Shown one piece after another: positions 19,352-36,805 of a stretch of 64,000 nt of DNA. The translations under genes and the position numbers were made by a program. Source of the stretch: Pseudomonas sp. N3-W. GTDB lineage: Bacteria > Pseudomonadota > Gammaproteobacteria > Pseudomonadales > Pseudomonadaceae. Positions within the stretch are counted from its first letter, which is position 1. The number at the start of each line of letters is the position of its first letter. The notes under the pieces are model-generated. The model saw nothing but the letters and a program-made list of their open reading frames with translations, was not told the DNA's origin and did not search any database. Location of the stretch: the NCBI RefSeq assembly GCF_024970185.1, contig NZ_CP103965.1:2600001-2664000 (forward strand). Direction: 5' to 3'.

Positions 19352-19774
19352 GTGGTGCGCCAGTACAACCCGTTTGGTTGTGGTGGCGGGGGCGGCCTAT
19401 GAAGTCTTTCCGTTATCCCGATTCGGATGTGATCAGGCGGCGGTTGCGGGCAAGGGAATGATGTTGTCTGGGCGCACGCTTTCGCGGGCAAGCCCGCTCC
19501 CACAGGGTTTGATGGCGTCCCCAATTTTTGCAGCCTGTTCGATCCAATGCGGGAGCGTGCTTGCCCGCGAAAGCGTCCGTTCAATCACCGCAGCCCTCAA
19601 GATTAAAACATCGCAGCCTTCGGCAACATCGTGCGATGGGACGTCCAGCTACTCCCCAATCATGAAGTTTGTGTGACATCCGTTCGGTCGCGCCGCTCGC
19701 CAACTGCCTATGACGTAACAGCAGGTGTTGCAGACCTGCGGCCTGTTGCGCCTATCGAAAAGGACCTAGTTGTG
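19352..19774. other. Intergenic region between lapA and the giant exoprotein gene
   Basis: About 420 bases lie between the lapA terminator and the pdtA-like start. They hold a REP pair at 19478-19575 and the ribosome site AAAGGA at 19758-19763. I find no second lapA-like gene and no clear Pho box. The frame of the giant gene stays open back to 19631, but without a ribosome site. Confidence 0.55.
19478..19575. repeat. REP pair, variant core
   Basis: Inverted copies with the variant core TTTCGCGGGCAAGCCCGCTC and TGCGGGAGCGTGCTTGCCCG. This is a different subfamily from the GAGCAAGCTCGC type elsewhere in the window. Confidence 0.88.
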
Positions 19775-22700
19775 ATGCTCGTTCGCCAAGCCCGACGCCA
19801 TACCCAAGCCCCTTGTGTGCCGCGTGCCGCCGCTCGTTCGGCGGATCAATCGCTGTGGTTGCTCAAACCCTTGGCGCAGGCGGTGGCGCTGTGTCTGGTG
19901 GCGGGCAGTGCACAGGCACAGACGGCGTTCAGTTCGGGCTGGTTTGCCGCCAAGGGCGCAGCGCAGCAAGCGGCGGCGGCGCGTCCTGGCGCGGCGGGTG
20001 GTTTGCCGGGGATGACGCCGCCCCTGGCGCAGCAGCAACAGGCCAGTCAGCAATTGCAGCGTTCGTTGCAGACACTGAACAACACCGTGGCCGCGATTGC
20101 CGCACAGCAAGCGGCGCAGGCTGCCGGGCGGGCGGCGGCATTGAACACCGTGCAGTTTGTGCCGGACGGTCTGGGCGAGGGCGGCCTGAAGGTCGACACC
20201 GGCCTGACCCAGGGCTGGCAGAACGCCAAGGGGCCGCAACAGACCCAGGCCGAAGGCAAGACCACGGTCAGGATCGAGCAGACCGCCGACAAGGCGATCC
20301 TCAACTGGGAAACCTTTAACGTCGGGCGCAGTACCCGCGTGGAATTCGCCCAGCAATCGAACTGGGCGGTGCTCAACCGGGTCAACGATCCGGGCGCGCG
20401 GCCAAGCCAGATCCAGGGCCAGCTCCACGGCGACGGCACGGTGATGCTGATCAACCGCAACGGCATCGTGTTCAGCGGCACCAGTCAGGTCAATGTGCGT
20501 AACCTGGTGGCCGCCGCGGCAAACATCACCGACATCCAGTTCCGGGATCGCGGGCTGTATTTCGACAGCAGCGCCAGCCAGCCGACCTTCACCGAGGCTG
20601 CTGGCAAAGTGCTGGTGGAACGCGGTGCGCAAATTGAAACCCGTAAACCGGCGGTGTCCACCGATGCCGGCGGCTATGCCTTGCTGCTGGGCAGCGAAGT
20701 GGAAAATGCCGGGGCCATCAGCACTGCCAAGGGCCAGACCGTGCTTGGCGCGGGCGACAGTTTCTACATTCGCAAAGGCTCGGGCACCGAGGGCAACGGC
20801 TTCTCCACCACCTTCGGCAGCGAAGTCACACCGGGCTTCAAGGCCGGCAGTGGCGCGGGCAAGGTCAGCAACAGCGGCTTGATCCAGGCCGCCACCGGCG
20901 ACATCACCCTGACCGGCCACGAGGTCGTGCAAAACGGCGTGCTGCTGGCCAGTACTTCGGTGGCCACGCGTGGCACGGTGCATTTGCTCAACCCGACCAG
21001 CGACAACACCGGCAGCGTCACGCTTGCGCAGGGCAGCGTCACAGCGGTCATGCTCGACAACAGCGAGCTCACGGCCCTGGACAGTCAGCACAATGCCGCG
21101 CTGATCGGTGTAACGGCGAACAACCGCATTCGCAGCGATCAGTCGCGCATCGATGTCGCCAGTGGCGGCACCGTGGAGTTCCAGAACGGCTCGATCACCC
21201 TCGCCACCGGCGGGCAAGTCGCGGTGGCAGCAGGGCGGCGCAGCCTGGTGCGTGACGGCGCGCTGATTGACGTGTCAGGCGCCATCGGCGTCAAGGTGGC
21301 GATGGAATCCAACAGCATCAAGATCAACGTACAGGGCAACGAACAGCGTGATGCGTCGATCAACCGCGAGGGCGGCGCGCTCAACAGCCATGACGTGTGG
21401 GTCGATGTGCGCGAGCTGGTTTTCGTCCCCGCCGGCACCAATGGCTATGCCAATGATCGCTGGTACACCGCGGGTGGTTTGCTGGAAGTGGGCGGCTACC
21501 TCGGCACTCAGGGCCACCGTATCGGCGAGTGGATGGCCCAGGGTGGCACGGTGAGTTTCAGCGGTCACGATGTGGTCAGCGAAAAGGGCTCGTTGATCAA
21601 CCTGTCCGGCGGCACCCTCGATGTGCAGAGCGGCACCGTGCGCCAGAGCTGGTTGCGCGGGGCGGACGGGCGCCTGTACGAAGTGTCAAAGGCGCCGGGA
21701 GACATGCTCTACAGCGGTTTCTACAGAGGCTATGAAGACAGCAGCAAGCGCTGGGGGCAGACCCGCTATTTCGATAACCCGTTGATCGGGCCGACCAGCC
21801 GCCAGGAGTCAGGCTACACCGTGGGCCGTGATGCCGGGCAACTGGTGATTGCCACCGGCAACGCGCTGCTCGACGGCCAACTGCTCGGCGAAGTGTTCCA
21901 GGGTGAACGGCAGAACCAGGCGCCGCGTGCCGGGCTCGACGGCTATGCGCAGGCGCAAACCGCTTTGGCGCGCCGGGCGCAGTTGATTGTCGGCAGCTAC
22001 GACCCGGCGTATGTCGCCGCCAGTGGCGGCCTGTTGTACGGCCTGAATCCGTTGCTCGATCACGTGCAGATTGGCGGCGAGCGTCCGGTCGAGCGCGCCG
22101 ATCAAGGCCTGAGCGTCGCGGTGTCCGATTCGCGCCAAGGCAAGCTGTTCCTCGATACCGAGCAGCTCAACGGCTTTCGTCTCGGTGCGCTGAAGGTCGC
22201 GGCCAAAGACCGGATTGAAGTCAATCAGGTGCTGACCGTCGACACCGGCGGCGACATCACCCTGTACGGCCCGGATGTGCAGGTCAACGCCAACCTGATC
22301 GCCCGTGGCGGCAGCCTGCAGTTGGGCAACGTGCTCAACCAGCTGAGTTTCGACAAACGTGACGACACGCAGATCAAGGCGCCACCCGGCAATGCAACTC
22401 AGGTGAACGTGGCGCAAGGCGTGCAACTGGACAGCCGTGGCCTGTGGAGCAACCTGCGTACCAACCCCGATGACGGTGCGGGCCTGGCTTATGTGAACGG
22501 TGGTCGGGTGTCGATCCGCAGCAGCGGCGACATTCTCCTTGCCAGCGGCAGCGCAGTGGACGTGTCGTCTGGCGGCGCGCTGCTGGCCAATGGCAAGACC
22601 CAAGGCGGCAAGGGGGGCGATGTGACACTGGAATCCAGCGCGCTGAGTGCGCCGGGTCAGTCGCACATGATGCTCGACGGCGAGGTCCGTGGTTACGGCG

Positions 22701-25700
22701 TGACCGGCGGCGGCAGCCTGGTGATTCAGGCCAATAACGTGTTGATCGGTCAGGCCGCTGACACCGTCGCCGACCACACCCTGCAACTGGCGCCGAGCCT
22801 GTTCGGCAAGGGCTTCTCGGCCTACAACGTCATTGGCCTGAACGGCCTGGACGTGGCGCCGGACACGGTGGTCGATGTGACGATGCCGGTTTACCGTTTC
22901 GGCGACGCGGCCGCCAGCCAGCCCAGTGGCGTGGCGCCGAACACTGCGCTGCAGCTGTGGACGCCGATACTGTTCCAGCAAGACCCGCTCAAGGGCCTGC
23001 TGACCCAACGCGGTGGCGCCAGCCTGTCGCTGCAAGGCGGCGCCACGCTGGTCGGTCTGATCGACCCGGCCGTCAGCCCGCTGACCCTCGGACAGGGCTC
23101 GCGCATCAGCGTCGATCCCGGCCAGCGCATCAACCTGCGCGGCGCCGGGCAAATCACTGTCGACGGTGAACTCAATGCCTGGGGCGGCACGATTGATATC
23201 CGTCAGCAACAGTTTGGCTCGATCGACGTCGCCACCTCGCCGCAACAGGCGGATCCGACGGCCCATGAGCGCTCGATCTGGATCGGCGAACACGCGGTGC
23301 TGGATGTCGGCGCACGCGCCAACACCGCCGTCGACGCGCTGGGCCGGGTGTACGGCAAGGTGGGCAAGGGCGGCAGCATCATCATTGGCGGCGAGATCGA
23401 CGCGAAGAAAGCCACGGCCACCTCCGCCGATGCCTATGTGATCGTGCGTGACGGCGCGCGGCTGGAAGCGTCCGGAGCCGAGGCGCTGCTGGACATTGCC
23501 GGTCAAGGACCGACCCGCGTCGCCACCGACGGCGGGCGCATCGCCTTGAGTTCCTACAATGGCCTGTTCATCGATGGCGTCTTGCACGCGTCGGCGGGCG
23601 GTGTCGGTGCCGCAGGGGGGCGCCTGGACATTGCCCTGGACACGCCCACCTACCCAAGTGAGCGCGCTGGCAGCGATGTGCGGGTGCCGAGGGAAATGAT
23701 CATTGGCCAGGGATCGGAGGAGTCCCCGTTACCGACGGACTTGCAGCCGGGGCAGGCCGCGCCGCTGTTGCGTTATGGCCGTGCCCGTCTGAGTGCCGAC
23801 CGGTTGATGTCGGGTGGCTTCGACAATCTGAGCCTGCTGAGCAACGGCTTGCTGTCGTTCGACGGTGATGTCGATTTGCGCATGAACCAGAGCCTGAGCC
23901 TGTACGCCGGCGCGCTGTCGTTGGCCGATGCGTCCAAAGGCACGGCCCGCATCAGTCTGGCGGCACCTTACATGCGCCTGTCCGGGATCGGCCTTTACAA
24001 CGGCATGGTCAACAACATCCGCCCACGGGTACTGAACAACCCGACACCGAATCTGTCGGCTGCGCAGTTCAGTGCCACGGCCAACTTGCTGGACCTGGGC
24101 AACAGCCTGTCGTTCGGCACTCAGGGTACGATTGCGCAACTCAATGCGCCGGCGCTGGAGGTCAGTCGTCGCGGCTTCGATCAGGTGTCGCTCGACAGCA
24201 GGGGTGATCTGCGCTTTCTCGTACCCACCAGCGGCAACGTCAAATCCGAGCTGTGGACGCCGGGAGACTTGAACCTCGGCGCCGCCCAGATTTACCCCGC
24301 CAGCGGTGTGCAGGCCGAGGTGCGGGTCGGCTATCAGAGCGCCCAGCCGGGGCCTGAACATACGTTGCGTATCAGCAGCCATGGACCGGCACCCAGGGCG
24401 TTGCCGTACTCGGTATTCGGCAGCCTGTCGCTGGCCGCCAGCCGGATCGAGCAGGGCGGTGTCATCCGGGCACCGCTGGGGCTGATTACCCTTGGAGACA
24501 ACCTCATCACCAAAACCGCAGAACTGCATGTGCTGCCGGGCAGCGTGACATCGGTCAGCGGCGCCGGGTTGGTCATGCCCTATGGCGGCACCACTGACGG
24601 GATCGACTATCGCTATAACGGCAGCTCCGTGGTGTTGCAGGGCATCAGCGGCGACAGCGCCGGCGTGACGATGACCTCGCAGTACATCGATGTGCAGAAC
24701 GGTGCGTTGATCGATCTGTCCGGTGGCGGTGATTTGCGCGGTGCCGGTTTCATCTCCGGGCGCGGCGGTTCCACCGATGCGCGCTTCAATCCGCTGGTGC
24801 GCAATGCCAGCGATGGCACCTTCAGCCTGCCGGGTCTGGCGAGTAATCCGGTGTATGCCATCGTGCCGGGCAATCAAAGCAGCTACGCACCCATGCTCGC
24901 CGAAGCCGGCGCGGTCGATCCGCGTATCGGTCAGCAGATCACGATTGGCGCCGGCGTGCCGGGGCTGGCGGCGGGCACTTACACCTTGCTGCCCTCGACC
25001 TTTGCCCTGTTGCCCGGTGCGTTCCGGGTCGAGGTCAACGGTCAGGCTGCGCCAGCGGCCATGAGCGGTGCGCTGGCGATGCGTAACGGCTCATGGAGCA
25101 GTTCCGGTCAGCTGTCGATTGCCAATACCGGCGTACGTGACAGTCTGGCCAGTCAACTCGTCTTGACGTCCGCCGACGTCCTGCGCCGCTATTCCCAGTA
25201 CAACGAAACCAGCTTCAGCCATTTCGTGCAGAGCGATGCGGCGCGTCGCGGCTTGCCACGGGCGTTGGCGCCGATGGACGCCAAGAGCCTTAATCTGTTT
25301 CTCACCGACGGTGGTCGCCACGACATCGCCCTGGACTTCAACGGCCAGGCGTTGTTCGGCGCTGCCACGGGCGGTGTGGCCGGGACCGCGGTGGTGCGAG
25401 GCAGTGTCGGGGCGGACGTTGAAATTCTCGGCGCAGGGCATTCGCGAACCGAAGGCTTCAAGGGGCCTGCACTGTATGCCGACAGCCTCAACAATCTGGG
25501 CGCCGGACGCCTGGCCATTGGCGCGACCCCGAGTGTGATATACGGGACAGCGGGCAATATCGTCGACTTCAAGGGCAACACGTCCAGCATCACCCTGCGT
25601 GAAGGCGCGATGCTCGCCGCGCCCGAAGTCCTGCTGCGTACCGACTCGGCGGCTGGCGCTATCACGATTGAAGCCGGCGCCGGCATCAACACCCTGGGTC

Positions 25701-28700
25701 GCGGCGATGTGCCTTACGACTCCACGGCCGGCTTCGTCTACCAGCCAGGGGCGGCCAGTTTGCTGGTGGTGTCCAATGGCTGGAGCAATGTCCTGGCGCC
25801 TGCGCCGGGCAACGGCTTGCAGGGCGCTGGCAGCATCCGCATCGGCAGTTGCTCAACTGCCGAGTGCAGCAACCCGGCGCTGCTCTATTCCAGTGGCAGC
25901 ATCACTGCCGCCACCGACAACCAGTTCGAGCTGGGCGAATCCGTGGGGTTCGGCACGCGTCATCTGGCCCTGGCAGTGGGCTCGGTGAACGCCGGCAGTG
26001 GCGAGGCCCTTGCCGCCGCGGGTAATCGTGTACCGGCCGGTTTGACGCTCAACCAGAACGTGCTTGATCGCCTGTTGCAGGGTGACACTCGGTTCGGCGC
26101 CCCGGCGCTGGAAACCCTTGCCCTGACGACCCGCGACTCGTTCAACTTCTTGGGCAGCGTCATTCTTGACACCCTCGATCCGCAAACCGGGCGCAGCAAA
26201 TTGCAGAACCTGGTGCTCGCCACTCCGGCCATTTACGGTCTGGGCGATGCCAACGATGTGGCGACTATTCGCACCGGCAATCTGATCTGGAATGGCGCCA
26301 CTCAGGATCCGGGAGCTGTCATCTCCGGTGGCGCCGGCACGGGCCACGGCACGCTGGAGATTCAGGCGCAACGCATCGAATTGGGCTATGGCCCGAATCC
26401 GCAACCCAGTGGCCTGGACCAGAACAACCGGCTGGCGCTGGGCTTTGCCAACGTCAACCTGACGGCCGGCGAACGCATCACCGCCAACCACAAGGGCAGT
26501 CTGTCGGTATACGAACGGCAGGGCGCTTACGACCCGCTCAACGGCTATGCCTACAGTGGCGGCAATCTGAACCTGCGCACGCCGTTGCTCAGCGGTGAAG
26601 CGGCGTCGGTCAACCGGCTCAAGGCGGGCAACGACCTGACGCTGAGTTCACTCAATGGCGCCGCTGTACCCGCCGTGGCCGATGCCTTGGGCGCGGAACT
26701 GACCCTCGAAGCGCGCAACGTGTTGCTCGACAGCCGCATTGCACTGGGCAGCGGCAAACTGGTGGTCAAGTCCGAGGACGACCTGACCCTGGCCAAAGGC
26801 GCCTGGCTGGACATGGCAGGGCGGACATTGCCGTTCAACGATGTGCAGAAATACAGCTGGGGCGGCGACGTGACGCTCTACAGCCACAACGGCAATATCC
26901 GTCAGGCTGTCGGCTCGCGGATCGATCTGTCAGCAAGGAACAATCAGGCCGGCAACCTCAGCGCCGTGGCGTTGGCGGCGGACGCGGGTGGGGTCGACTT
27001 GCAGGGCGAAATACTCGGTGCCAGCAGCGGCGACTACGATGCCGGCGGTACGTGGGTGCCGTACAAGGCCGGGGGCATCGACATTCGTGCCCGGCAGTTG
27101 GGCGCCAGTGGCGCCTTGAGTGAGGCATTCGCCGCGCTCAACCAGCGCTTGAACGCCGGCCAGGTGTTCGGCAGTCGCAGCTTCCAGCTCAAGCAAGGCA
27201 ATCTGCTGATCGGCGAGGGGCTCAAGGCCGGCGAGGTCAATGTCTCGGTGGACAATGGCAGCTTGACGGTGGCGGGGCTGATCGATGCCAGTGGCGAGCG
27301 CGTCGGCAGCATTCGTTTGTCCGCCAAAGACGGCCTGACCCTGGCCGGCCATTCGGTGCTCGACGCCCATAGCCGCGTGCTGCGGGTCGACAGTTACGGC
27401 AAGATCATCGATGCACCGAACCGCGCCGTGGTCGAACTCAATTCCGGCGACGGCGTGCTGACCATGGCTTCAGGCGCGCGGATCGACCTGCGCCACGGCA
27501 CCGACGCACTAACCGGCGCCTTGCCTGGCCAGCACGACGGGCGCCCGCGCGGCACCCTGGAATTGAACGCCCCGCGTCTGGGTGTCGGCGATATCGCCAT
27601 CGACGCCAGCGGTGCACTGAATATCCAGGGCGCACGCTCCATCGGCCTCAACGCCACGCGCCGCTATATCGACGCCGAGGACGGCACCGACCCGGCGGCC
27701 AGCGGCCGACCGTATCAGGTGATCGATCAGGCGTATCTGGATCGTATTCATGGCGACAGCACCACGTTCATCAACGCGGCACTGGCAAACAGTGACTTGC
27801 TGCAACGCAAACTGGCCGGCCTGAACAACGCCACGTATGCCGACGCTTTCCACCTGCGCCCCGGCGTGGAAATCGCCAGCAAAAGCACCGACGGCGACCT
27901 GGTGGTGCAGGGCGATCTGGACTTGTCCGGTTATCGCTACGCCAGCCTCAATCCGCACACGCAACAAACTGCGGTCTATGGCTCCGGCGAAGCCGGCAAT
28001 CTGGTGATTCGCGCCGGGGGCAATCTCGACATTCATGGCAGCCTCAACGACGGCTTTGCACCGCCACCGGAAACCGTGGACGACGCCGGCTGGAAACTGT
28101 TGCCGGGTGTGCAGCCGTTCGGCGGTGACCTGATCGTGCCGGGCGCCGGGGTCACGCTGGCCGAGGGCACGCAGTTCCCGGCGGGGACTACCTTGAATTA
28201 CGACGTGCCGATTCAGGGCTCGACCCTGGCGAGCGGTACGTTGTTGCCGGCCGAGGGTATTCTGGCCGGGCCTTACACCTTCAACGCCGGCACCGTATTG
28301 GCCGCTGCCGTGCATGACGCCGCCGGTAATCTGTTGTACGCCGCCGGCACCTTGCTCAGCGACAGCCTGACCTTGCCCGCCGGCAGCCGGCTGGGTGCCG
28401 GTACTCGGTTGAACACGGCCACCGCGCTGCAAGCCATGCTCTGGCCCAAGGGCGTGCCGTTGCCGGGTACGGTCGAAGCGGATGTGCCAGGCGTCAAAGG
28501 CGTGCGGCTGAACGGTGCGCTGGCGTTGCTGCGCGGCTCGCTGATTCCGTCCATGACTGACGTGGTGTTGGCCGATGGCACGGCGTTTATCGAGTTGCGT
28601 CCTTTGGGTGGGACGCAACAGGGTCGCAACTGGGCAGTGGCGAGCATGTTGCCGTCGGGCAGTGCGTCCTGGTCGATGCGCGTGGTCGCCGGGTCGGACC

Positions 28701-31700
28701 TGGAAGCCGCCGACAGCCGCGCCGTGAAACCAGTAACCCGCGAAGGCAATCTGCGGCTGGCGGACAGCCATTACGGCTTGAAAGTGACTGAGAAAAAGCT
28801 CCAGACCGTCTGGGCGGATGACAACCCGCTGGGCTACCCGGCCGGCGAAGCGGTGAGCGATGATGATCTGTTCTACTGCGATATTTTTCCGGGCGCCTGT
28901 ATCGCACCGGCGAGGTTCCTGTGGGCGGAAGGCAACATCATCGGCATGCCACCGGGGACGCCGATCATTGATGATGATCTGTTCTGGTGTGATATCGACC
29001 CCGGTTCCTGTACCCCGAACAAAGGGGGTATCAGTGTTGCCGTTCATTCGCAGATGTTCAGCGTACTGCGCACCGGCACCGGCGATCTGGACCTGATGGC
29101 CGCCGGCAACCTGAGCATGGATTCGCCCTTTGGCGTGTACACCGCCGGCACCCAGTCGGGCGATGTCGATCCGCGCTACAACCAGCCTCGCGGTCGGCTG
29201 TCGGACGATGGTTCGGTGTTGGGCCGTGCGGGCGTCGACTACGAAAAATGGGTCAACGGCGGCACCGAGAGTCTCTATCAGGCCTGGTATCCGCAGAGGG
29301 GTGGCAACCTGGCTATCCATGCCGGCGGGTCGGTGTCGGGGGATGTGCTCGGGCGTCGTGCGTTGGTCAATGGCGCCGAGATCCGTGAACAGGTGCCGAG
29401 CGTCGCCGTGGGGAACTGGCTGTGGCGCCAAGGCACTGGCAACGACGATATACCCACCGCCTGGTGGATCAATTTCGGCAGCTATGCGGCCCAGCCACTG
29501 CCCGACCAGAACGCCGACAGCGGGCCGTATCTGGTGGGGTTCACCGGGTTCGGCACCTTGGGCGGCGGTAACATCAGCCTGCGTGCCGGCGGTGACGGCG
29601 GCATGCTCAAGGCCCTTGGCGGCGGTGTGAATAATCTTTACCCGCGCAGTCAGGGGCTGATCGTGGCGGTTGGCAGTACCGGTCGAGTGGGCAGCGACGC
29701 CAACCTGCAACTGACCGGTGGCGGCGACATGGACATTCGCATCGGCGGTACGCTCAATCCTTCGTTGCAGGCACGGGCAGGGCAGTCCGCAACCGGCACG
29801 CCGCAGCATGATCTGCAAGGCGCGTTGATCAACCTGCGAGGCGCGGCTCAGCTGACCAGTAGCGCCGTGGGCGGGATCAACCTGCAATACGGCGCGTTTT
29901 CCATCTTTCAGGACCCTCGTGAAACCCGCGCCTATGACCCGTTCAACTCCACCATGGGCAGCGCCAGCGGCGGCCTGGTGTTGATCCCCGGTGACTCGGG
30001 CATGCGCCTGAACAGCCGTGGCGACCTGGTGTTGGGGGGCGCATCGGACCCCGGCCGGGTGCGGTTGCAGAACTCCACGCCCTTTACCACCGCTGACGGG
30101 GTTGAGCACCCGGGAGGTGGTTTGAGCGGCTTCACGTTGTGGACTGATCACACCGCCATTGATCTGTTCTCGGCCGGTGGCAACCTCACGCCGAGCACTC
30201 AGATGGCAGAGATCGATGTGGGTCAGAGTCCCGTTTCGGGCCGCAATACGTCACCCACTGATGGTCGTTTCGTGTTCCCCTCGATTCTGCGTGCGGTTGC
30301 CGCTCAGGGCTCTATTTATGCGGGGCCGTCGGCGGCTTATGGCGCAGTGGGCGGGTTGTTCCCGGCGCAGGGTTATTCGCTGTTGCTGGCGCCCTCGAAC
30401 GCCGGGCAACTTGAACTGCTGGCGGGTGATTCGATCTACGCCGGCGGCTACGCGATCAATCAATCCGGCGCCAGTGCGCTGGCCATCGCCACGCCGTTTG
30501 CGCCAGCGTTCAATGGCTATGGCAATGCGCTTTCCAGTACGCCGATTCTGACCAATCGCGGTAGCGAGGGTGTGGCTGCGGATAAAAACCTGCGTTATCC
30601 GCTGTTTGCCTTTGGCGCCGACAGCTATTCGGGCCTGGGCGGGGTGCAGGCACCCGCACGCTTCTATGCGTTGACCGGTGATCTGATCGGCATCCGCAGT
30701 GGCGAGACCCTGCACTTCAGCGATTCCGGGCGCACCTGGTACGAGGGGGCCGGGCCGGTGTGGATGCTGGCCGGACGCGACATCGTGGCCGCCGGTACAG
30801 ACCTGGGCAAACCGACAGCCGTGCCCCTGGAAATGGGCAACGGCCGGGACAGCATCACTTCGACCGGCAACCTGTTTATCCATGACGACCCACGGGCGGT
30901 GTCGCGGATTTCGGCCGGGCGCGACATTCTCTACAGCAGCTTCGATATCGCCGGCCCCGGTACGTTGGAGATCGATGCCGGTCGCAACATCCTCATGGAA
31001 GACCGCGCCAGCATCACCAGCATCGGGCCGGTACTGGCCGGGGATCATCGACCGGGGGCAAGCCTGGTGCTACAGGCCGGCGCGGGCACGCAAGGCCCCG
31101 ATTACGGGACGTTCATCGCCCGTTATCTCGACCCGCGACACCTTGCCAGCCCCGGCATGACCCTCGGCGAACAACCGGGCAAAGTGGTCAAGACCTACGG
31201 AGAAGATCTGCAGGCCTGGCTGACGTTGGGCTACGGTTTCAGCGGCAACGAAGAGCAGGCGCGGGCGTTCTTCACCACGCTGTCGACTGCCGAGCAGGCC
31301 GTGTTTGCGCGACAGGTGTACTTCGCCGAGCTACGTGCCGGTGGCCTGGAGTACAACGACGCGAGCGGCCCGCGTCAGGGCAGCTACCTGCGGGGGCGCA
31401 ACGCGATTGCCGCGTTGTTCCCCACCCATGACGTGGCAGGTCATGCGCTGCGTTACGATGGCGATATCACCTTGTATGGCGGTGCCGGAATCAAGACGCT
31501 GTTTGGCGGCGACATCCAGATGCTCACCCCCGGTGGTGGCCAGGTGTTCGGCATCGAAGGCGCGGCCCCACCGTCCACGGCGGGGATCATCACCCAGGGC
31601 GCCGGCAATATTGCGCTGTACTCCCAGGGCAGCATCCTGCTGGGTCAGAGCCGAATCATGACCACCTTCGGCGGGTCGATTCTGGGCTGGTCGTCGCAGG

Positions 31701-32308
31701 GCGACATCAACGCCGGCCGAGGCTCGAAAACCACCGTGGTCTACACGCCGCCCAAGCGTGTGTATGACACCTGGGGCAACGTCACGCTGTCGCCATCGGT
31801 GCCGAGTACCGGGGCGGGGATTGCCACGCTCAATCCGATTGCCGAAGTGGCGCCGGGCAACATCGACCTGATCGCGCCATTGGGCACCATCGATGCCGGC
31901 GAGGCAGGTATTCGCGTGTCGGGCAACGTCAACATCGCGGCCCTGACCGTAGTGAACGCGGCGAACATCCAGACCCAGGGCAAATCGTCCGGCGTGCCGA
32001 TGACGGCGTCGGTCAACACCGGTGCGATCACCTCCGCCAGCTCGGCGGCCACCTCGGCGACCCAGGCCGCCGAAGACGTATCGCGCCAGCAACAAGCGGC
32101 AGCGCGGCAGAACCAGGCATCGGTGTTTACCGTGCAGGTGTTGAGCTTTGGTTCGGAGCAGTTGGCGCCTTCGCGTGATGGCGCCAGCCGCGCGCCTGCA
32201 CCGGGGTACAACCCCAACAGCCCTGTCCAGGTGCTGGGCGCGGGCACGCTGGATGAACAGACCCGCCAACAACTCACCGAAGAGGAGCGCGGTCAGCTGA
32301 CGCTATAG
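19775..32308 (+). CDS. pdtA: Giant TpsA-type filamentous haemagglutinin-like exoprotein (PdtA-like)
   Basis: A two-partner-secretion exoprotein of about 4,177 residues. ATG at 19775 (or GTG at 19772) follows AAAGGA. The long signal ends LCLVAGSAQAQ. A TPS/haemagglutination activity domain follows (about 95-330: NTVQFVPDGLGEGGL, LNWETFNVGRSTRVEF, LINRNGIVFSGTSQVNVRNL). The rest is repetitive beta-helix sequence. Around residues 2790-2930 are repeats of the form [PA]AGT-x-L. At 3012-3079 lies a tandem 31-residue Cys-containing repeat. The C-terminal third resembles the DUF3739-type region of such proteins and ends without a recognisable toxin domain. In P. aeruginosa PdtA is phosphate-regulated and follows lapA/lapB, as here. 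No TpsB partner gene is adjacent. Confidence 0.88.
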   Translation: MLVRQARRHTQAPCVPRAAARSADQSLWLLKPLAQAVALCLVAGSAQAQTAFSSGWFAAKGAAQQAAAARPGAAGGLPGMTPPLAQQQQASQQLQRSLQTLNNTVAAIAAQQAAQAAGRAAALNTVQFVPDGLGEGGLKVDTGLTQGWQNAKGPQQTQAEGKTTVRIEQTADKAILNWETFNVGRSTRVEFAQQSNWAVLNRVNDPGARPSQIQGQLHGDGTVMLINRNGIVFSGTSQVNVRNLVAAAANITDIQFRDRGLYFDSSASQPTFTEAAGKVLVERGAQIETRKPAVSTDAGGYALLLGSEVENAGAISTAKGQTVLGAGDSFYIRKGSGTEGNGFSTTFGSEVTPGFKAGSGAGKVSNSGLIQAATGDITLTGHEVVQNGVLLASTSVATRGTVHLLNPTSDNTGSVTLAQGSVTAVMLDNSELTALDSQHNAALIGVTANNRIRSDQSRIDVASGGTVEFQNGSITLATGGQVAVAAGRRSLVRDGALIDVSGAIGVKVAMESNSIKINVQGNEQRDASINREGGALNSHDVWVDVRELVFVPAGTNGYANDRWYTAGGLLEVGGYLGTQGHRIGEWMAQGGTVSFSGHDVVSEKGSLINLSGGTLDVQSGTVRQSWLRGADGRLYEVSKAPGDMLYSGFYRGYEDSSKRWGQTRYFDNPLIGPTSRQESGYTVGRDAGQLVIATGNALLDGQLLGEVFQGERQNQAPRAGLDGYAQAQTALARRAQLIVGSYDPAYVAASGGLLYGLNPLLDHVQIGGERPVERADQGLSVAVSDSRQGKLFLDTEQLNGFRLGALKVAAKDRIEVNQVLTVDTGGDITLYGPDVQVNANLIARGGSLQLGNVLNQLSFDKRDDTQIKAPPGNATQVNVAQGVQLDSRGLWSNLRTNPDDGAGLAYVNGGRVSIRSSGDILLASGSAVDVSSGGALLANGKTQGGKGGDVTLESSALSAPGQSHMMLDGEVRGYGVTGGGSLVIQANNVLIGQAADTVADHTLQLAPSLFGKGFSAYNVIGLNGLDVAPDTVVDVTMPVYRFGDAAASQPSGVAPNTALQLWTPILFQQDPLKGLLTQRGGASLSLQGGATLVGLIDPAVSPLTLGQGSRISVDPGQRINLRGAGQITVDGELNAWGGTIDIRQQQFGSIDVATSPQQADPTAHERSIWIGEHAVLDVGARANTAVDALGRVYGKVGKGGSIIIGGEIDAKKATATSADAYVIVRDGARLEASGAEALLDIAGQGPTRVATDGGRIALSSYNGLFIDGVLHASAGGVGAAGGRLDIALDTPTYPSERAGSDVRVPREMIIGQGSEESPLPTDLQPGQAAPLLRYGRARLSADRLMSGGFDNLSLLSNGLLSFDGDVDLRMNQSLSLYAGALSLADASKGTARISLAAPYMRLSGIGLYNGMVNNIRPRVLNNPTPNLSAAQFSATANLLDLGNSLSFGTQGTIAQLNAPALEVSRRGFDQVSLDSRGDLRFLVPTSGNVKSELWTPGDLNLGAAQIYPASGVQAEVRVGYQSAQPGPEHTLRISSHGPAPRALPYSVFGSLSLAASRIEQGGVIRAPLGLITLGDNLITKTAELHVLPGSVTSVSGAGLVMPYGGTTDGIDYRYNGSSVVLQGISGDSAGVTMTSQYIDVQNGALIDLSGGGDLRGAGFISGRGGSTDARFNPLVRNASDGTFSLPGLASNPVYAIVPGNQSSYAPMLAEAGAVDPRIGQQITIGAGVPGLAAGTYTLLPSTFALLPGAFRVEVNGQAAPAAMSGALAMRNGSWSSSGQLSIANTGVRDSLASQLVLTSADVLRRYSQYNETSFSHFVQSDAARRGLPRALAPMDAKSLNLFLTDGGRHDIALDFNGQALFGAATGGVAGTAVVRGSVGADVEILGAGHSRTEGFKGPALYADSLNNLGAGRLAIGATPSVIYGTAGNIVDFKGNTSSITLREGAMLAAPEVLLRTDSAAGAITIEAGAGINTLGRGDVPYDSTAGFVYQPGAASLLVVSNGWSNVLAPAPGNGLQGAGSIRIGSCSTAECSNPALLYSSGSITAATDNQFELGESVGFGTRHLALAVGSVNAGSGEALAAAGNRVPAGLTLNQNVLDRLLQGDTRFGAPALETLALTTRDSFNFLGSVILDTLDPQTGRSKLQNLVLATPAIYGLGDANDVATIRTGNLIWNGATQDPGAVISGGAGTGHGTLEIQAQRIELGYGPNPQPSGLDQNNRLALGFANVNLTAGERITANHKGSLSVYERQGAYDPLNGYAYSGGNLNLRTPLLSGEAASVNRLKAGNDLTLSSLNGAAVPAVADALGAELTLEARNVLLDSRIALGSGKLVVKSEDDLTLAKGAWLDMAGRTLPFNDVQKYSWGGDVTLYSHNGNIRQAVGSRIDLSARNNQAGNLSAVALAADAGGVDLQGEILGASSGDYDAGGTWVPYKAGGIDIRARQLGASGALSEAFAALNQRLNAGQVFGSRSFQLKQGNLLIGEGLKAGEVNVSVDNGSLTVAGLIDASGERVGSIRLSAKDGLTLAGHSVLDAHSRVLRVDSYGKIIDAPNRAVVELNSGDGVLTMASGARIDLRHGTDALTGALPGQHDGRPRGTLELNAPRLGVGDIAIDASGALNIQGARSIGLNATRRYIDAEDGTDPAASGRPYQVIDQAYLDRIHGDSTTFINAALANSDLLQRKLAGLNNATYADAFHLRPGVEIASKSTDGDLVVQGDLDLSGYRYASLNPHTQQTAVYGSGEAGNLVIRAGGNLDIHGSLNDGFAPPPETVDDAGWKLLPGVQPFGGDLIVPGAGVTLAEGTQFPAGTTLNYDVPIQGSTLASGTLLPAEGILAGPYTFNAGTVLAAAVHDAAGNLLYAAGTLLSDSLTLPAGSRLGAGTRLNTATALQAMLWPKGVPLPGTVEADVPGVKGVRLNGALALLRGSLIPSMTDVVLADGTAFIELRPLGGTQQGRNWAVASMLPSGSASWSMRVVAGSDLEAADSRAVKPVTREGNLRLADSHYGLKVTEKKLQTVWADDNPLGYPAGEAVSDDDLFYCDIFPGACIAPARFLWAEGNIIGMPPGTPIIDDDLFWCDIDPGSCTPNKGGISVAVHSQMFSVLRTGTGDLDLMAAGNLSMDSPFGVYTAGTQSGDVDPRYNQPRGRLSDDGSVLGRAGVDYEKWVNGGTESLYQAWYPQRGGNLAIHAGGSVSGDVLGRRALVNGAEIREQVPSVAVGNWLWRQGTGNDDIPTAWWINFGSYAAQPLPDQNADSGPYLVGFTGFGTLGGGNISLRAGGDGGMLKALGGGVNNLYPRSQGLIVAVGSTGRVGSDANLQLTGGGDMDIRIGGTLNPSLQARAGQSATGTPQHDLQGALINLRGAAQLTSSAVGGINLQYGAFSIFQDPRETRAYDPFNSTMGSASGGLVLIPGDSGMRLNSRGDLVLGGASDPGRVRLQNSTPFTTADGVEHPGGGLSGFTLWTDHTAIDLFSAGGNLTPSTQMAEIDVGQSPVSGRNTSPTDGRFVFPSILRAVAAQGSIYAGPSAAYGAVGGLFPAQGYSLLLAPSNAGQLELLAGDSIYAGGYAINQSGASALAIATPFAPAFNGYGNALSSTPILTNRGSEGVAADKNLRYPLFAFGADSYSGLGGVQAPARFYALTGDLIGIRSGETLHFSDSGRTWYEGAGPVWMLAGRDIVAAGTDLGKPTAVPLEMGNGRDSITSTGNLFIHDDPRAVSRISAGRDILYSSFDIAGPGTLEIDAGRNILMEDRASITSIGPVLAGDHRPGASLVLQAGAGTQGPDYGTFIARYLDPRHLASPGMTLGEQPGKVVKTYGEDLQAWLTLGYGFSGNEEQARAFFTTLSTAEQAVFARQVYFAELRAGGLEYNDASGPRQGSYLRGRNAIAALFPTHDVAGHALRYDGDITLYGGAGIKTLFGGDIQMLTPGGGQVFGIEGAAPPSTAGIITQGAGNIALYSQGSILLGQSRIMTTFGGSILGWSSQGDINAGRGSKTTVVYTPPKRVYDTWGNVTLSPSVPSTGAGIATLNPIAEVAPGNIDLIAPLGTIDAGEAGIRVSGNVNIAALTVVNAANIQTQGKSSGVPMTASVNTGAITSASSAATSATQAAEDVSRQQQAAARQNQASVFTVQVLSFGSEQLAPSRDGASRAPAPGYNPNSPVQVLGAGTLDEQTRQQLTEEERGQLTL
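28808..29011 (+). repeat. Tandem 31-residue Cys-containing repeat within pdtA
   Basis: Two 93-base units (28808-28900 and 28919-29011) are separated by 18 bases. Both encode W-A-[DE]-x-N-x2-G-x-P-x-G, then DDDLF-[YW]-CDI-x-PG-[AS]-C. Each unit holds two cysteines seven residues apart; cysteine is otherwise rare in this protein. Confidence 0.85.
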
Positions 32309-32328: not shown

Positions 32329-32358
32329 GGGGCAGCCATTTTGGTTGCCCCTTTTTTT
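32329..32358 (+). terminator. Rho-independent terminator of the giant exoprotein gene
   Basis: The stem GGGGCAGCC / GGTTGCCCC (one G-T pair) with loop ATTTT is followed by seven T residues, 21 bases after the stop. Confidence 0.93.
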
Positions 32359-32374
32359 CCTGTGCCGGTCGACA

Positions 32375-34081
32375 TCAAACAACCGACGGGTGCTCACTCA
32401 AGAGCAACTTGATAGCTGTGCTGTTGGCCAAATCACACCATGGGCCGTCATCAACAATCGCGCCGTCGTGCATGACGATGACTCGATCGAAGCGATACAG
32501 GTGGCTGACATCGTGCGTGACACAAATCAGTCCGCGTTCGGTGAAGGTGTCGAAAAGCAAATCCCATACTGGTTTGGCCAGTTTGGGCTCGATTGATGCG
32601 CTGGGCTCGTCGAACAGATTGAAACGACCTGGTCTGTTGATGAGCCGCAGCAACGACAACCGTTTGGCTTCACCGCCCGAGATATTGGATGCGTTTTCCG
32701 TGAGGTTGCGATGTGCCACGATGTCCTCAAGGTTCAGTCGTTTTATCGCTTCGCCCAGTTGTGGGGACGCATCAACGCCGAATAGGACTGACCTGTCAAA
32801 GCTACCTTCCAGAAACTGCGGTGATTGAGGGCAGTACCTCAGCAATTTCAAATGGGTCTGGGCGTTTAACCCGGATATCGGCATGTCATCGATGCTCAAT
32901 TGACTCCTCACGCAAGCATTCAAACCGGCCAGCGCCTCCAGCAAGGTGGATTTACCGGCGCCGCTGGGACCGGTGATGGCAACTGATTGACCTTGGGTGA
33001 ACATGATGGCTTTCTCGATGGATAATCGGACGGCCCCGTTGTCTGTGACAACGCAGGGTTCGAATACCAGTGTCGAGTCGCGCGTGGACGTGATTTCACC
33101 TTGTCGACAGTCGTCGTCGAAGTTTGGTGACGACAGTAAAAACTGGAGTCGGCGCTGGTCAGCCAGAAATTGATCCAGTACCCGATAGCCTTCAGTCAGT
33201 GCCGTGATATTGAGTAAAAAACTGCCGGCGATGGAGAATATGGCCACTAGCTGTCCGACGCTGATACTCGGCTCTCCTGACAACTGGTCGAGGACTCCCC
33301 AGCCGAGTAATCCACCCGTGGCGAGACTGACGAACAGAATTTTTGCGCCACTCAGGAAACCGCCCGAACTTGCAACGGTGACCGCTGCTTTGGCGTAATT
33401 ACCGAAGGCATGGTTCAGCGGTTGAGATGCGGTACGTTCAGCACCTTCCAATTTGATTGATTTGCCGGTGTTCAAGGTATTGAACAGAATTGCACTGAGC
33501 TCATCCTCTTGTTCATTGACCGCATCAATGTGCTTTCTGCGCCATCTGATAATCCGATGGGCAACGAACAGATAAACGAAGCCAAGGCCAGTCATCCCGA
33601 GAAAAATGCCTGTACCGCCCATGTAATGGAAAGCACTGGCAACGATAACAAATTCCAGGCATAGCGGCAGTCCGATGGTAATGAAGAACGTTAACAGCTG
33701 TTCGTGTGCCGTCATTCCACGTTCCACGGATTTTATAAAGTGTCCGACACGCCACGAGCTGAACTGGAGGAACTCCTTGCGCATCAGTTGCGCAATCCAC
33801 TCGATGGAAGCATTCATCACTACGTGTTGTACAAGCTTGGATAAAAAGAAAATCTGCAGCGGATTAATGATCGCCTGGGTGCACCCTGAAAGGGTAAAGC
33901 CTGCGATGAGCAGCAAGAGCAAGTTAAGCGTTGACTGACTATTACTGTTCAGGGCATCGACAATTCTCCCCAGTAGCAAGGGAGGTGCTAACGCTATAAC
34001 TTTCAGCACTATGATGGTGGTGACGGTTGATATCAAAAGCGCCGCGTGTTTTTTACATGCTGTTCTGATCAGGGTTTGCAT
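32375..34081 (-). CDS. ABC exporter (fused permease and ATPase), likely RiPP exporter
   Basis: A 568-residue half-transporter. About six membrane helices fill residues 10-300. The nucleotide-binding domain has Walker A GPSGAGKST (371-379), Q-loop CPQSPQFL, signature NISGGEAKR (466-474), Walker B FNLFDEPSA (487-495) and H-loop CVTHD. It starts directly with the permease; there is no N-terminal C39 peptidase, so it would not itself cut a leader. It follows the YcaO gene by 26 bases on the same strand, third after the small peptide gene, so I infer it exports the modified peptide and may give immunity. Codon use is AT-richer than its neighbours. No convincing ribosome site stands before the ATG. 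Other substrates cannot be excluded. Confidence 0.85.
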   Translation of the reverse strand: MQTLIRTACKKHAALLISTVTTIIVLKVIALAPPLLLGRIVDALNSNSQSTLNLLLLLIAGFTLSGCTQAIINPLQIFFLSKLVQHVVMNASIEWIAQLMRKEFLQFSSWRVGHFIKSVERGMTAHEQLLTFFITIGLPLCLEFVIVASAFHYMGGTGIFLGMTGLGFVYLFVAHRIIRWRRKHIDAVNEQEDELSAILFNTLNTGKSIKLEGAERTASQPLNHAFGNYAKAAVTVASSGGFLSGAKILFVSLATGGLLGWGVLDQLSGEPSISVGQLVAIFSIAGSFLLNITALTEGYRVLDQFLADQRRLQFLLSSPNFDDDCRQGEITSTRDSTLVFEPCVVTDNGAVRLSIEKAIMFTQGQSVAITGPSGAGKSTLLEALAGLNACVRSQLSIDDMPISGLNAQTHLKLLRYCPQSPQFLEGSFDRSVLFGVDASPQLGEAIKRLNLEDIVAHRNLTENASNISGGEAKRLSLLRLINRPGRFNLFDEPSASIEPKLAKPVWDLLFDTFTERGLICVTHDVSHLYRFDRVIVMHDGAIVDDGPWCDLANSTAIKLLLSEHPSVV

Positions 34082-34107
34082 GGGGCGCCTGTTTTGATTC
34101 GTAAGAG

Positions 34108-35295
34108 TCAGGAGTTTTTCGCTGTTTGTCGAAGGATGCGTTGGGGAGCCACCAGGATGCCGTTTCGGATGATGTTGAAACGCTCAAGGCCTGGGATATA
34201 AGACTGACAAACAGTGCCGTTGTCTGAATACTGCGTGACGATTCGGTAGTAAATATTTCTGCCGGTAGCCGAAACTTGATTGTTCAGTATCTCTAACTGT
34301 TGTAGCACGCTTTTTGTGAGGCCCTTCAGTGGCGGGTCGAATACTGGCAAGTCCAAATCTTTTATGGGTGCGAGATCTATCAAGTTTTTCAATGTGGTTG
34401 ACCCTGCAAGAAAATCAAGTGTTTTTCTGTCAGCTATTTCTTGTGAGTGGTCATATAGTGCGTCGACTTGAAATTGCTCTGTCACGGCTCGTTGAATGGC
34501 GGTGCAGATGTCCAAAGAGCAGCCCGAGCCAATAGGTGATAGATGGAGGTCTCCGGGGCCGGATTTAGGTAATGCCACAGAGAAATAGACATTCATGAAG
34601 TCTTTAATAATTATGATTTGCAGTTTTTCTGCCAGTGCCAACGCGCTAGTATTGTTTTGCAGCGCCGTCGCGAGCAGGGTTTTAGACGGTGTATATAATT
34701 TAATAGCGGGACCAATAGAGCAAACTGCCATGAAGAGGCGGGACAGAATGTGTCGTTCAATGATTTCGTGAATCCCGTGTAATAGTGCCTCGTTTTTTGT
34801 GCAACCAAATGCAACTCCCGAGTTTGACGAATAGCGAGAAAGGAATTTGGTGTTTTCACTTGCTTTGTTCCATGAGTTGATTTCTATCAAGGGGTGGAGA
34901 AGGGTGCGCGGGACGAATAGTTCTTTAGTTAGATCAATTGTTGTTAGTTTGTATGTGTCCATTGTCTCGGATTTACAAGGCAGACCTGTCATGAATCCAT
35001 CACTTTCAGCATCCTGCTGAGTGGCAAGGAAATCACAACGCTGAGCAGGTGTGTCATCTTTTTTCGGCAGGAACGTGCTGAAATGCTCAATGCTTTCTGC
35101 CAGAGCGCCGACCCGCGCGTCAGGGCCTTTTCCTGCTCCTGAATCTACTAGGTTATTTTTGTTGTCAAAAAGATCTGCGGTGGCTACAAGCTGAGTGTGG
35201 TCTGTATAGCGTACGACGGCATTTAAATTTAAAGAGTGAATGATTTTATCTATTTTTAACAAAGCTTCAGCAGAACTGAATTCTCGTTCAGACAT
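34108..35295 (-). CDS. Stand-alone YcaO-family peptide-modifying enzyme
   Basis: A 395-residue YcaO-domain protein; members phosphorylate backbone amides with ATP to make azolines, thioamides or amidines. Visible ATP-site motifs are SGAGKGPDARVGALAESIEH (52-71) and SNSGVAFGCTKNEALLHGIH with HEIIERH (157-182). The C-terminus (ILRQTAKNS) lacks the PxPxP tail typical of azoline-forming cyclodehydratases, and no E1-like/ocin-ThiF partner or TfuA gene is nearby. ATG at 35295 has GAGG six bases upstream; ATG at 35307 has none. The gene is conspicuously AT-rich for this genome, suggesting acquisition by transfer. It lies 77 bases after the 37-codon gene, across a hairpin. Family is sure, reaction unknown. 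Confidence 0.88.
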   Translation of the reverse strand: MSEREFSSAEALLKIDKIIHSLNLNAVVRYTDHTQLVATADLFDNKNNLVDSGAGKGPDARVGALAESIEHFSTFLPKKDDTPAQRCDFLATQQDAESDGFMTGLPCKSETMDTYKLTTIDLTKELFVPRTLLHPLIEINSWNKASENTKFLSRYSSNSGVAFGCTKNEALLHGIHEIIERHILSRLFMAVCSIGPAIKLYTPSKTLLATALQNNTSALALAEKLQIIIIKDFMNVYFSVALPKSGPGDLHLSPIGSGCSLDICTAIQRAVTEQFQVDALYDHSQEIADRKTLDFLAGSTTLKNLIDLAPIKDLDLPVFDPPLKGLTKSVLQQLEILNNQVSATGRNIYYRIVTQYSDNGTVCQSYIPGLERFNIIRNGILVAPQRILRQTAKNS

Positions 35296-35317
35296 ACAAG
35301 GCCTCATGGAGTTTAAG

Positions 35318-35349
35318 AATGCCGAAAGGAAACCCTTTCGGCATTTTTT
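35318..35349 (-). terminator. Hairpin between precursor gene and YcaO gene (attenuator candidate)
   Basis: A 12-base-pair perfect stem (AATGCCGAAAGG with CCTTTCGGCATT) has the loop AAAC. The T-run is on the plus strand (TTTTTT). On the operon strand the stem is followed by CTTAAAC, so it should only partly stop transcription or protect the precursor mRNA 3' end. Confidence 0.7.
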
Positions 35350-35372
35350 ACAGTTACTATGTCAACGGAGTA

Positions 35373-35486
35373 TCAGTTGGTGAGTGAAGCAAAGAAATTC
35401 ACTTCACTGTCCAAAAAGCCACCTGACGTTGCCAGCAATTGTGGCATGCCATCAAAAGGAACCACTTCAGTACGTTTTTTGCCCAT
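35373..35486 (-). CDS. Putative RiPP precursor peptide (37 residues)
   Basis: A 37-codon gene directly upstream of the YcaO gene. Its ribosome site AAGGAG lies eight bases before ATG, among the best in the window. The peptide begins MGKKRTEVVPFDGMP, continues through QLLATSGG, and ends FLDSEVNFFASLTN. It has no Cys or His; Ser/Thr occur at positions 6, 20, 21, 27, 34 and 36. A Gly-Gly pair at 22-23 with Leu at -7 suggests leader cleavage that would release a 14-residue aromatic-rich core, though no C39 peptidase is present. Strong initiation, small size, the hairpin after the stop and the YcaO/ABC genes downstream all fit a RiPP precursor. I recognise no known family. Confidence 0.75.
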   Translation of the reverse strand: MGKKRTEVVPFDGMPQLLATSGGFLDSEVNFFASLTN

Positions 35487-35513
35487 GGTATTAACTCCTT
35501 GTTATTGGTAGGG

Positions 35514-35558
35514 CGGCACTTGTTGGTAAGTGCCGCACTTGCAAATTTTTTCGCAAGT
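35514..35558 (-). promoter_or_regulatory. Two hairpins in the 5' leader of the peptide mRNA
   Basis: CGGCACTT-GTTGGT-AAGTGCCG (35514-35535) is a perfect 8-bp stem. ACTTGC / GCAAGT (35537-35558) is a 6-bp stem around an A/T-rich loop. Both lie between the candidate promoter and the ribosome site, so they may stabilise or regulate the mRNA. Confidence 0.55.
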
Positions 35559-35563
35559 CATGC

Positions 35564-35593
35564 ATTAATGTCTGACTGATTGGCTTTTTTCAA
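35564..35593 (-). promoter_or_regulatory. Candidate sigma-70 promoter of the RiPP-type operon
   Basis: On the minus strand, TTGAAA (35593-35588) and ATTAAT (35569-35564) are separated by 18 bases, about 80 bases before the peptide ATG. The -35 box matches 5/6 and the -10 box 4/6. Confidence 0.4.
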
Positions 35594-35854
35594 TTGCATG
35601 GCGTCGTGAAACGTCCTATGCGGATGTGGGTTACTTCTTACATGGGGGTGGGATTAATCTGGGGGGGGATTTACACAATTGTCTCTACTTGGTGATTTGG
35701 TATTTTAATTCAACGAGTTGCAATGTTTAATGGTTTTGAAAGAGGCTGTTTTTTGGAGCGTTGACGTTGAGTGAAATCCTGAGAAATAGGCTTGTTAGCG
35801 ATGACTGGGAGATTCAGGACGCCATCGCGAGCAAGCACCACTTCTGCAAAGCAT

Positions 35855-36805
35855 TTAAAACGCATACGGAATACTCACCTTCGCCCACAACATGTCGCCC
35901 TGCGGCCGGTTTTCCACGTCGAATTCCCTGGCCCAGCGGATTTCGGCGCTGGCGTATTCAAGGAAAGTCAGGTGCAGTGCCGGGCCGATGGCGAACACCT
36001 GGCCGCGTACGCCGTCGTTCACGTCCTGGCCATTGAACTGCACGGTCTTGCCGTATTGTTTGTCGTCGGTGGTTTGCTTGAGGTAGTAACCGTTCAGACC
36101 CAGCATCAGGTTCTCGGTCACCTTGTAGCTGGCGGAATAATCGAAGTGGAAAATCTGCCCCGAGGTGTAGTCGGTGTCCTTGTTTTTCTCGTTGAAGCTG
36201 TAGGTGGTCTTCATCGACAGTTCGGTGTTTTCCGTCGGCAGCCAGGTGAAGGAGAACAACGGTTTGTAGGTGTAGAAGTTGTTGCTGGTGTTGGCCAGGC
36301 GATCGACGCTGTATTCACCGGTGGGCACGGTGACTTCCAGGGCTGCGCCGAGGGTCAGGTTTTTGCCCATGTCCCAGAGAATGATCGGCGCGAGGGTGGT
36401 GTCACCCATGCCTTCGCGGGTGTCGCTCTGGCCGAATACCGACACTTGCTGCTTGAGCCAAGGCTGCGCGATGTAACCGGCCAGGCGTCCGCCGAAGACA
36501 TGCAGCGGGCTCAGGTAATCCAGGCGCGGAATTACCGCCGTGGATTCTATATCGACGTTCGGCACCTTGCCGCCAAACGAGCTGATAGTGAGCTTCGTGG
36601 CTTTGTAATGGTTGTAGTAGACGTTGAACGCAACCATGTTGTCCGGAAGGCTGTTGATGTCCAGCGGCAACATGAAAAAGCCGTCGGTGCCGGGGCCTAT
36701 GTTGTCCACGCCTGCCTCGGTGGCCAGCGCAGGCACGGCCATGACCGCGCTGCCGGCGAGCCCCAGCGCCCATCGCAAGAAGAAAGTGGTGCGTGTCGAA
36801 TGCAT
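35855..36805 (-). CDS. SphA/MetA-type outer-membrane beta-barrel protein
   Basis: A 316-residue exported protein of the family named for MetA-pathway phenol degradation and SphA. The signal ends AVMAVPALA, followed by TEAGVDNIGPGTDGFFMLP. The remainder shows alternating amphipathic strands (DDTTLAPI-like GMGDTTLAPIILWDMGKNLT, LEVTVPTGEYSVDRL, YDYSASYKVTENLMLGLNGY) and ends in an aromatic residue, IPYAF, as outer-membrane barrels do. Probably a channel or uptake porin for a hydrophobic compound. The AraC-type gene is divergent 174 bases away and may control it. Substrate unknown. Confidence 0.78.
   Translation of the reverse strand: MHSTRTTFFLRWALGLAGSAVMAVPALATEAGVDNIGPGTDGFFMLPLDINSLPDNMVAFNVYYNHYKATKLTISSFGGKVPNVDIESTAVIPRLDYLSPLHVFGGRLAGYIAQPWLKQQVSVFGQSDTREGMGDTTLAPIILWDMGKNLTLGAALEVTVPTGEYSVDRLANTSNNFYTYKPLFSFTWLPTENTELSMKTTYSFNEKNKDTDYTSGQIFHFDYSASYKVTENLMLGLNGYYLKQTTDDKQYGKTVQFNGQDVNDGVRGQVFAIGPALHLTFLEYASAEIRWAREFDVENRPQGDMLWAKVSIPYAF

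Follow-up and report, generated by a model that had tools for sequence, protein, structure and literature searches.

A stand-alone YcaO, a conserved 37-residue peptide and an ABC transporter form an accessory operon in Pseudomonas that reads as a new RiPP family

Several described systems come close to the locus considered here, a three-gene operon for a 37-residue peptide, a stand-alone YcaO enzyme and an ATP-binding cassette (ABC) transporter in Pseudomonas sp. N3-W (contig NZ_CP103965.1, positions 2,600,001 to 2,664,000; these 64,000 nucleotides are hereafter the window). Among ribosomally synthesized and post-translationally modified peptides (RiPPs), bottromycin combines an N-terminal core and a follower with a stand-alone YcaO (PMC7136475). 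Streptamidine and other amidine RiPPs, as set out in the sections of PMC8442711 cited here, also pair a stand-alone YcaO with a short, often unannotated precursor that is not rich in Ser, Thr or Cys; the streptamidine family, which that paper reports from Actinobacteria and Firmicutes, combines a central HLSATH core and precursor motifs A and B with a hydrolase, a dehydrogenase, an iron-transporter-like gene and two ABC genes. Klebsazolicin (klpACBDE) is made with a YcaO, a precursor and an exporter and belongs to the narrow-spectrum peptides (PMC7136475), Pseudomonas is known to have microcin B17-like clusters (PMC4603692), and a Pseudomonas YcaO-TfuA cluster contains TfuA, ubiquitin-like, E1/ThiF-like, major facilitator superfamily and methyltransferase genes (PMC8719888). 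The substrates of YcaOs outside the thiazole/oxazole-modified microcins were unknown in 2015, and whether natural products result was posed as a question (PMC4603692).

A first-pass annotation had proposed an undescribed RiPP-type cluster in the window, and its gene assignments hold. In tandem on the minus strand lie the peptide gene (35373..35486, with ATG at 35486 and the stop ending at 35373; sequence MGKKRTEVVPFDGMPQLLATSGGFLDSEVNFFASLTN), the YcaO gene (34108..35295, 395 aa; PF02624, E 6.1e-21) and a 568-aa transporter in which membrane and ATPase domains are fused (32375..34081; PF00664 and PF00005). The gaps are 77 bp and then 26 bp, and beside these three no further gene of this tight operon is apparent. 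The strong ribosome binding site claimed for the peptide gene is present as AAGGAG on the minus strand at 35495..35500, with comparable sites in relatives. We read this set as a minimal RiPP operon, in which YcaO would modify an N-terminal core of the peptide, the C-terminal stretch would act as a follower, and the transporter would export an antibacterial product; on the whole, we think this reading is probably right.

The peptide is co-inherited with the enzyme, as expected of a RiPP operon. Among 398 Pseudomonas genomes, an open reading frame (ORF) that begins with MGx[KR]R[ST]E accompanies YcaO at 25/25 close loci, and stands upstream of it where shown; ‘close’ comprises 24 loci at E 5.4e-42 or better, the window's own included, and a 41%-identical fragment in G170. 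Homologous YcaO loci without a conserved peptide gene, which the first-pass annotation had named as evidence against its proposal, were looked for; none is among the close loci, and one further locus, L018, keeps the pump without the peptide, with YcaO left only as a match to residues 268-390. The tblastn search suggested at the same time places matches to the peptide upstream of YcaO in L002, L003, L004 and L017, and weakly in L008. A second draw of 378 Pseudomonadaceae genomes (6 positives in common with the first) gave 13 with such an ORF, two of them from a second genus. The trio of peptide, YcaO and ABC genes also occurs on three Vibrio plasmids, with YcaOs 29-30% identical to that of the window. 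The 28 full-length YcaOs with an MGxKR[ST]E-type precursor form one supported clade, in which no other precursor type occurs in the rows with DNA context. Most of the loci listed have unlike neighbours of the trio, L017 and L055 sharing a downstream gene and L046 and L056 an upstream one. That the trio recurs amid differing genomic neighbours and on Vibrio plasmids supports the RiPP-type reading of the gene set, in which the peptide is very probably altered and secreted.

Judged by its sequence, the small gene is real and conserved. The first-pass annotation called it unannotatable by length-limited gene callers, which is wrong, since some public records (P. vancouverensis, Vibrio sp. 16) already call it ‘hypothetical protein’. 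The peptide consists of an invariant N-terminal MGxKR[ST]E, a variable middle and an E-x-x-F near the C-terminus, within an amphipathic stretch FLxxExxFF. A profile search of public proteins returned 71 matches, the window's own peptide included (6 identical to locus peptides), and all 71 carry M-G-x-x-R-[ST]-E although no motif filter was applied; in six the start is called further upstream, and one carries Thr at position 4. Source names, where given, read ‘hypothetical protein’ except in two rows with ‘alginate O-acetyltransferase’; the latter (P0180, P0185) are 32-aa precursor relatives and evidently misannotated. Pooling database matches and locus genes gives 99 distinct peptides. In a tally of 98 of them, Ser occupies position 6 in 73 peptides and Thr in 25; position 8 holds Ile in 92, Arg in 5 and Val in 1; and E-x-x-F is present in 95. 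The chain can extend beyond E-x-x-F (L067, L068), and therefore a free C-terminal core is not required.

The peptide is under purifying selection, strongest at residues 2-8: for 18 chosen, partly overlapping pairs, pN/pS is 0.087 at residues 2-8 and 0.32 in the remainder, while all pairs, which are not independent, give 0.27 for the N-terminus, 0.74 for the middle and 0.53 for the C-terminus. Such a profile could also be that of a conventional RiPP, with the conserved N-terminus as the leader recognized by YcaO, and the variable middle and C-terminus as the modified and exported core. Leaders are usually N-terminal, and the fast middle, which also carries indels, resembles a diversifying core. 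Against this, 89/98 peptides have no Cys (9/98 do), the only universal Ser/Thr column is position 6 (A-I-E in L023 and E-Y-E in L008 stand where others have T-E or S-E), and the motif is bound to the very N-terminus and kept although the enzymes diverge down to about 29% identity in Vibrio. We regard the leader-core arrangement as rather unlikely. Since MGxKRSE is nearly invariant across such enzymes, with a free middle and an amphipathic C-terminus, the peptide is most likely, by analogy with bottromycin, a modified core followed by a follower.

The comparison with bottromycin can be taken further. Its precursor starts with MG as well, and the stand-alone YcaO without a partner protein is shared; on the layout proposed here, so would be a core after an N-terminal MG and a C-terminal follower. 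In contrast to bottromycin, however, there is one YcaO here instead of two, the operon has no methyltransferases, amidohydrolase, aminopeptidase or cytochrome, most of the peptides lack Cys, and the hosts are Pseudomonas and Vibrio, not Streptomyces; the core sequences differ too. With streptamidine the locus has in common the stand-alone YcaO and the short precursor, but gene content and host phyla differ from what is given in the cited sections of PMC8442711, and inspection of the 99 peptides by eye showed no HLSATH.

As for the enzyme, E3-R4 is invariant in 54/54 YcaOs, which sets its start at 35295, for 395 aa, and not at 35307. It is a minimal single domain with the predicted YcaO fold and the conserved glutamates of the ATP/Mg site that mark the superfamily. 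A C-terminal PxPxP, the mark of cyclodehydratase YcaOs, is found in 0/54, the window's included. No E1/ocin-ThiF C protein is fused to it or encoded in the three-gene operon (TIGR03882 has one match in the genome, below cut-off and 2.9 Mb away), and no SagB-type dehydrogenase is linked to these genes: the genome has two matches over cut-off, at 6.27 and 3.01 Mb, against 2.60-2.66 Mb for the window. The locus therefore shares YcaO, precursor and exporter with linear azol(in)e peptides such as microcin B17 and klebsazolicin, but is unlike them in having no ThiF/ocin-type partner, linked dehydrogenase or PxPxP. Likewise, it resembles YcaO-TfuA clusters in that YcaO adjoins a putative precursor gene, yet it has none of the accessory genes named in the cited part of PMC8719888, and TfuA (PF07812) has 0 matches in the whole genome.

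So what would the YcaO do to this peptide? Expressed in excess over the enzyme, the peptide would be trimmed by methionine aminopeptidase, which removes Met before Gly, and Gly2 would be exposed. YcaO would then grip the FLxxExxFF follower and, using ATP, activate a backbone amide within the core G-x-[KR]-R-[ST]-E. Two natural nucleophiles for YcaO chemistry are at hand, the constant Gly that follows Met and the constant hydroxyl at position 6, and the activated amide would be trapped either by the N-terminal amine, giving an amidine, or by the Ser/Thr6 hydroxyl, giving a (methyl)oxazoline. We tentatively place the amidine first; an oxazoline is slightly less likely, a thioamide a little less likely again, and any other modification improbable. 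The most specific form of the proposal, that of a single-enzyme RiPP in which YcaO joins the freed N-terminal Gly of the cationic core into an amidine, guided by the follower only and with one pump completing the pathway, is speculative and by itself unlikely to be correct in full.

A thioamide would fit a different scheme, namely backbone thioamidation without TfuA, like that by archaeal YcaO on McrA or by E. coli YcaO on uL16. MJ1094 of methanogens, of which the substrate is a protein, is the nearest solved YcaO by sequence profile and by VIA-align Z, while Foldseek E-values put it level with 4q86, which we take to be E. coli YcaO. The best full-length NCBIfam equivalog is TIGR03266 (McrA-glycine thioamidation), well below cut-off. 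As these nearest relatives form thioamides, they favor thioamidation over cyclization. MJ1094, the closest solved single-domain architecture, shares 19% identity over the aligned fold, and the YcaO of the window, unlike it, has a peptide gene next to it. Against thioamidation, the genome has no TfuA match, the operon has no sulfur gene, and nearness in fold is no proof of chemistry. We find TfuA-free thioamidation rather unlikely.

The transporter has, by eye, the motifs GPSGAGKST (Walker A), ISGGE (signature) and FNLFDEP (Walker B). Its best solved relatives are Atm1-type exporters, and together with the fused domains this makes export the likely direction of transport. No C39 peptidase domain is found in it among 25 of 27 Pfam families listed, and the bacteriocin_ABC model TIGR01193 aligns from model position 153 onward only. 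The same pump would both export the product and provide self-protection.

Between peptide and ycaO lies a 12-bp hairpin (35318..35345, minus strand) that resembles an attenuator. By script, its stem has at least 8 pairs, ranging from 8 to 14, in 29/32 Pseudomonadaceae loci; of the others, L023 has a GCCGAAAG stem by eye and L033 and L034 are ambiguous. The pairing is kept while the sequence is specific to subgroups (GCCGAAAGG/CCTTTCGGC, ACCGAAAGGG/CCCTTTCGGT, GTCGAAAG/CTTTCGAC, GCTTGGGGG/CCCCCAAGC and others). In the window, no long T run follows the stem and the terminator scan did not pick it up, and therefore the hairpin may attenuate rather than stop transcription, which may be how the peptide would come to exceed the enzyme. 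A short upstream ORF followed by a hairpin also recalls a regulatory leader-peptide ORF, in front of a YcaO with a housekeeping target. This is very improbable: selection acts on the peptide sequence, the peptide is co-inherited with YcaO and pump on plasmids, another YcaO in the genome has a stronger PF02624 match, and the peptide is retained in the three Vibrio loci, which have no clear hairpin. Further upstream, the 5’ leader has a hairpin ACTTGC..GCAAGT (35537..35558, minus strand; full arms ACTTGCG..CGCAAGT), with a stem preserved in many relatives by compensatory changes but missing from some, and a second inverted repeat, GCGGCACTT..AAGTGCCGC, seen in the sequence at 35513..35536 on the same strand. 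The ‘plausible promoter’ of the first-pass annotation could not be demonstrated, as a consensus scan of 34000-36000 gave 5 sites against 2.1 +/- 1.2 in shuffles, with only one of the 5 (35702-35729) preceding the peptide gene on the same strand.

The cassette is accessory, since four relatives have an empty site. It is flanked on one side by an ORF for a 4225-aa filamentous-haemagglutinin-like adhesin (19631-32308, named by eye), convergent to the operon, and on the other by an outer-membrane porin-like gene (35855-36805, PF13557). The latter has long matches in 8/57 relatives searched, own apart. In L074, L076, L077 and L078 the end of the adhesin gene is about 0.7 kb from the porin-like gene and 32358..35843 (approximate limits) is missing. 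For the other 4, no adhesin match was found within 3.5 kb downstream; one of these, G010, has its own copy of the trio elsewhere in the genome. At the empty site of these four relatives (about 760-1500, on the other strand in L078) a small toxin-antitoxin-like gene pair is seen by eye instead, most clearly in L074 and L076. Family A precursors (e.g. L005, L006, L065) are preceded by direct TCCTAC repeats at spacings of about 21-22 and 43-44 bp, and similar ones occur at an empty site.

Because the cassette is accessory, often broken and equipped with a pump, the product would most likely act on competing bacteria. Alternatively, the exported peptide could be a cell-cell signal, in line with a core that is almost invariant across species and with the lack of a separate immunity gene in the operon. 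The cassette has no receptor or regulator, however, and its patchiness, its absence from its site in relatives and its frequent breakage are expected of competition genes; a signal seems to us an unlikely role.

Several points weigh against the core-follower proposal as a whole. Besides the thioamide-forming relatives of the enzyme and the remnant in L018, in eight of the fetched loci the YcaO frame is broken or partial, at 81-291 aa (in-frame stops in L020 and L064; frameshift, deletion or a missing part in the others), some of which may be draft errors. RiPPs ordinarily have a conserved leader and a variable core, and by that rule the middle or the C-terminus would be the core here. The operon encodes no peptidase for follower removal, and no immunity gene besides the pump. 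Among the peptides, 3/98 lack E-x-x-F and 1/99 has neither K nor R at position 4. All 35 locus genes encode Ser or Thr at position 6, via seven different codons, but these genes were chosen by a motif filter admitting S, T or C at that position, so that the fair counts are those of the 71 database matches and of the loci found by YcaO first. Candidates from the 5.8 billion proteins of the profile search were drawn by five-residue words in common with the query rows. Finally, a YcaO relative at E 1e-3 occurs in 50/398 Pseudomonas genomes, and loci were fetched for the best 30 of these 50, the about 20 weaker ones (E 2.6e-19 to 3.6e-8) being only partly inspected upstream.

More distant YcaOs (about 28% identity) go with other MG-type precursors instead. 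In the sister groups B and C these also start with MG, have a conserved N-terminus and an acidic C-terminus, and therefore point to a core-follower layout as well. Group B (L040 6100-9140; L009-L013, L035, L037, L038, L071) has MGY[MLI]xxxNAN, ending LTEEEQAELEA-like; downstream are a methyltransferase in L040 (PF13649) and L044 and a prolyl-aminopeptidase-like hydrolase in L040, and the ABC gene of the window was unmatched in the stretches tested. Group C (L042 7132-8379; L014, L015) pairs MG[MK][WY]CCMYINEF precursors with YcaO; in L042 a methionine-gamma-lyase-like pyridoxal phosphate enzyme is encoded downstream, possibly a sulfur source for a thioamide or thiazoline. A Streptomyces plasmid (L072 4569-7758) combines a hypothetical 53-aa ORF with a SagB family dehydrogenase and a YcaO that shares about 27% identity with the Vibrio one.

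The peptide family was not found described in the literature surveyed, among the matches listed, and ‘undescribed’ remains apt: peptide, enzyme and gene set are unlike the described families compared, azole peptides and TfuA clusters differing in the features tested. The trio thus reads as a new YcaO-only RiPP family. If the amidine proposal is true, it would be a follower-type amidine peptide beyond Actinobacteria, on Pseudomonas cassettes and Vibrio plasmids. The near-invariant core would imply a single conserved target, and the 99 natural variants chart which changes the peptide permits and forbids. With a conserved 37-residue substrate candidate next to a stand-alone YcaO, and no other enzyme in the operon, the question of YcaO substrates is here reduced to two proteins.

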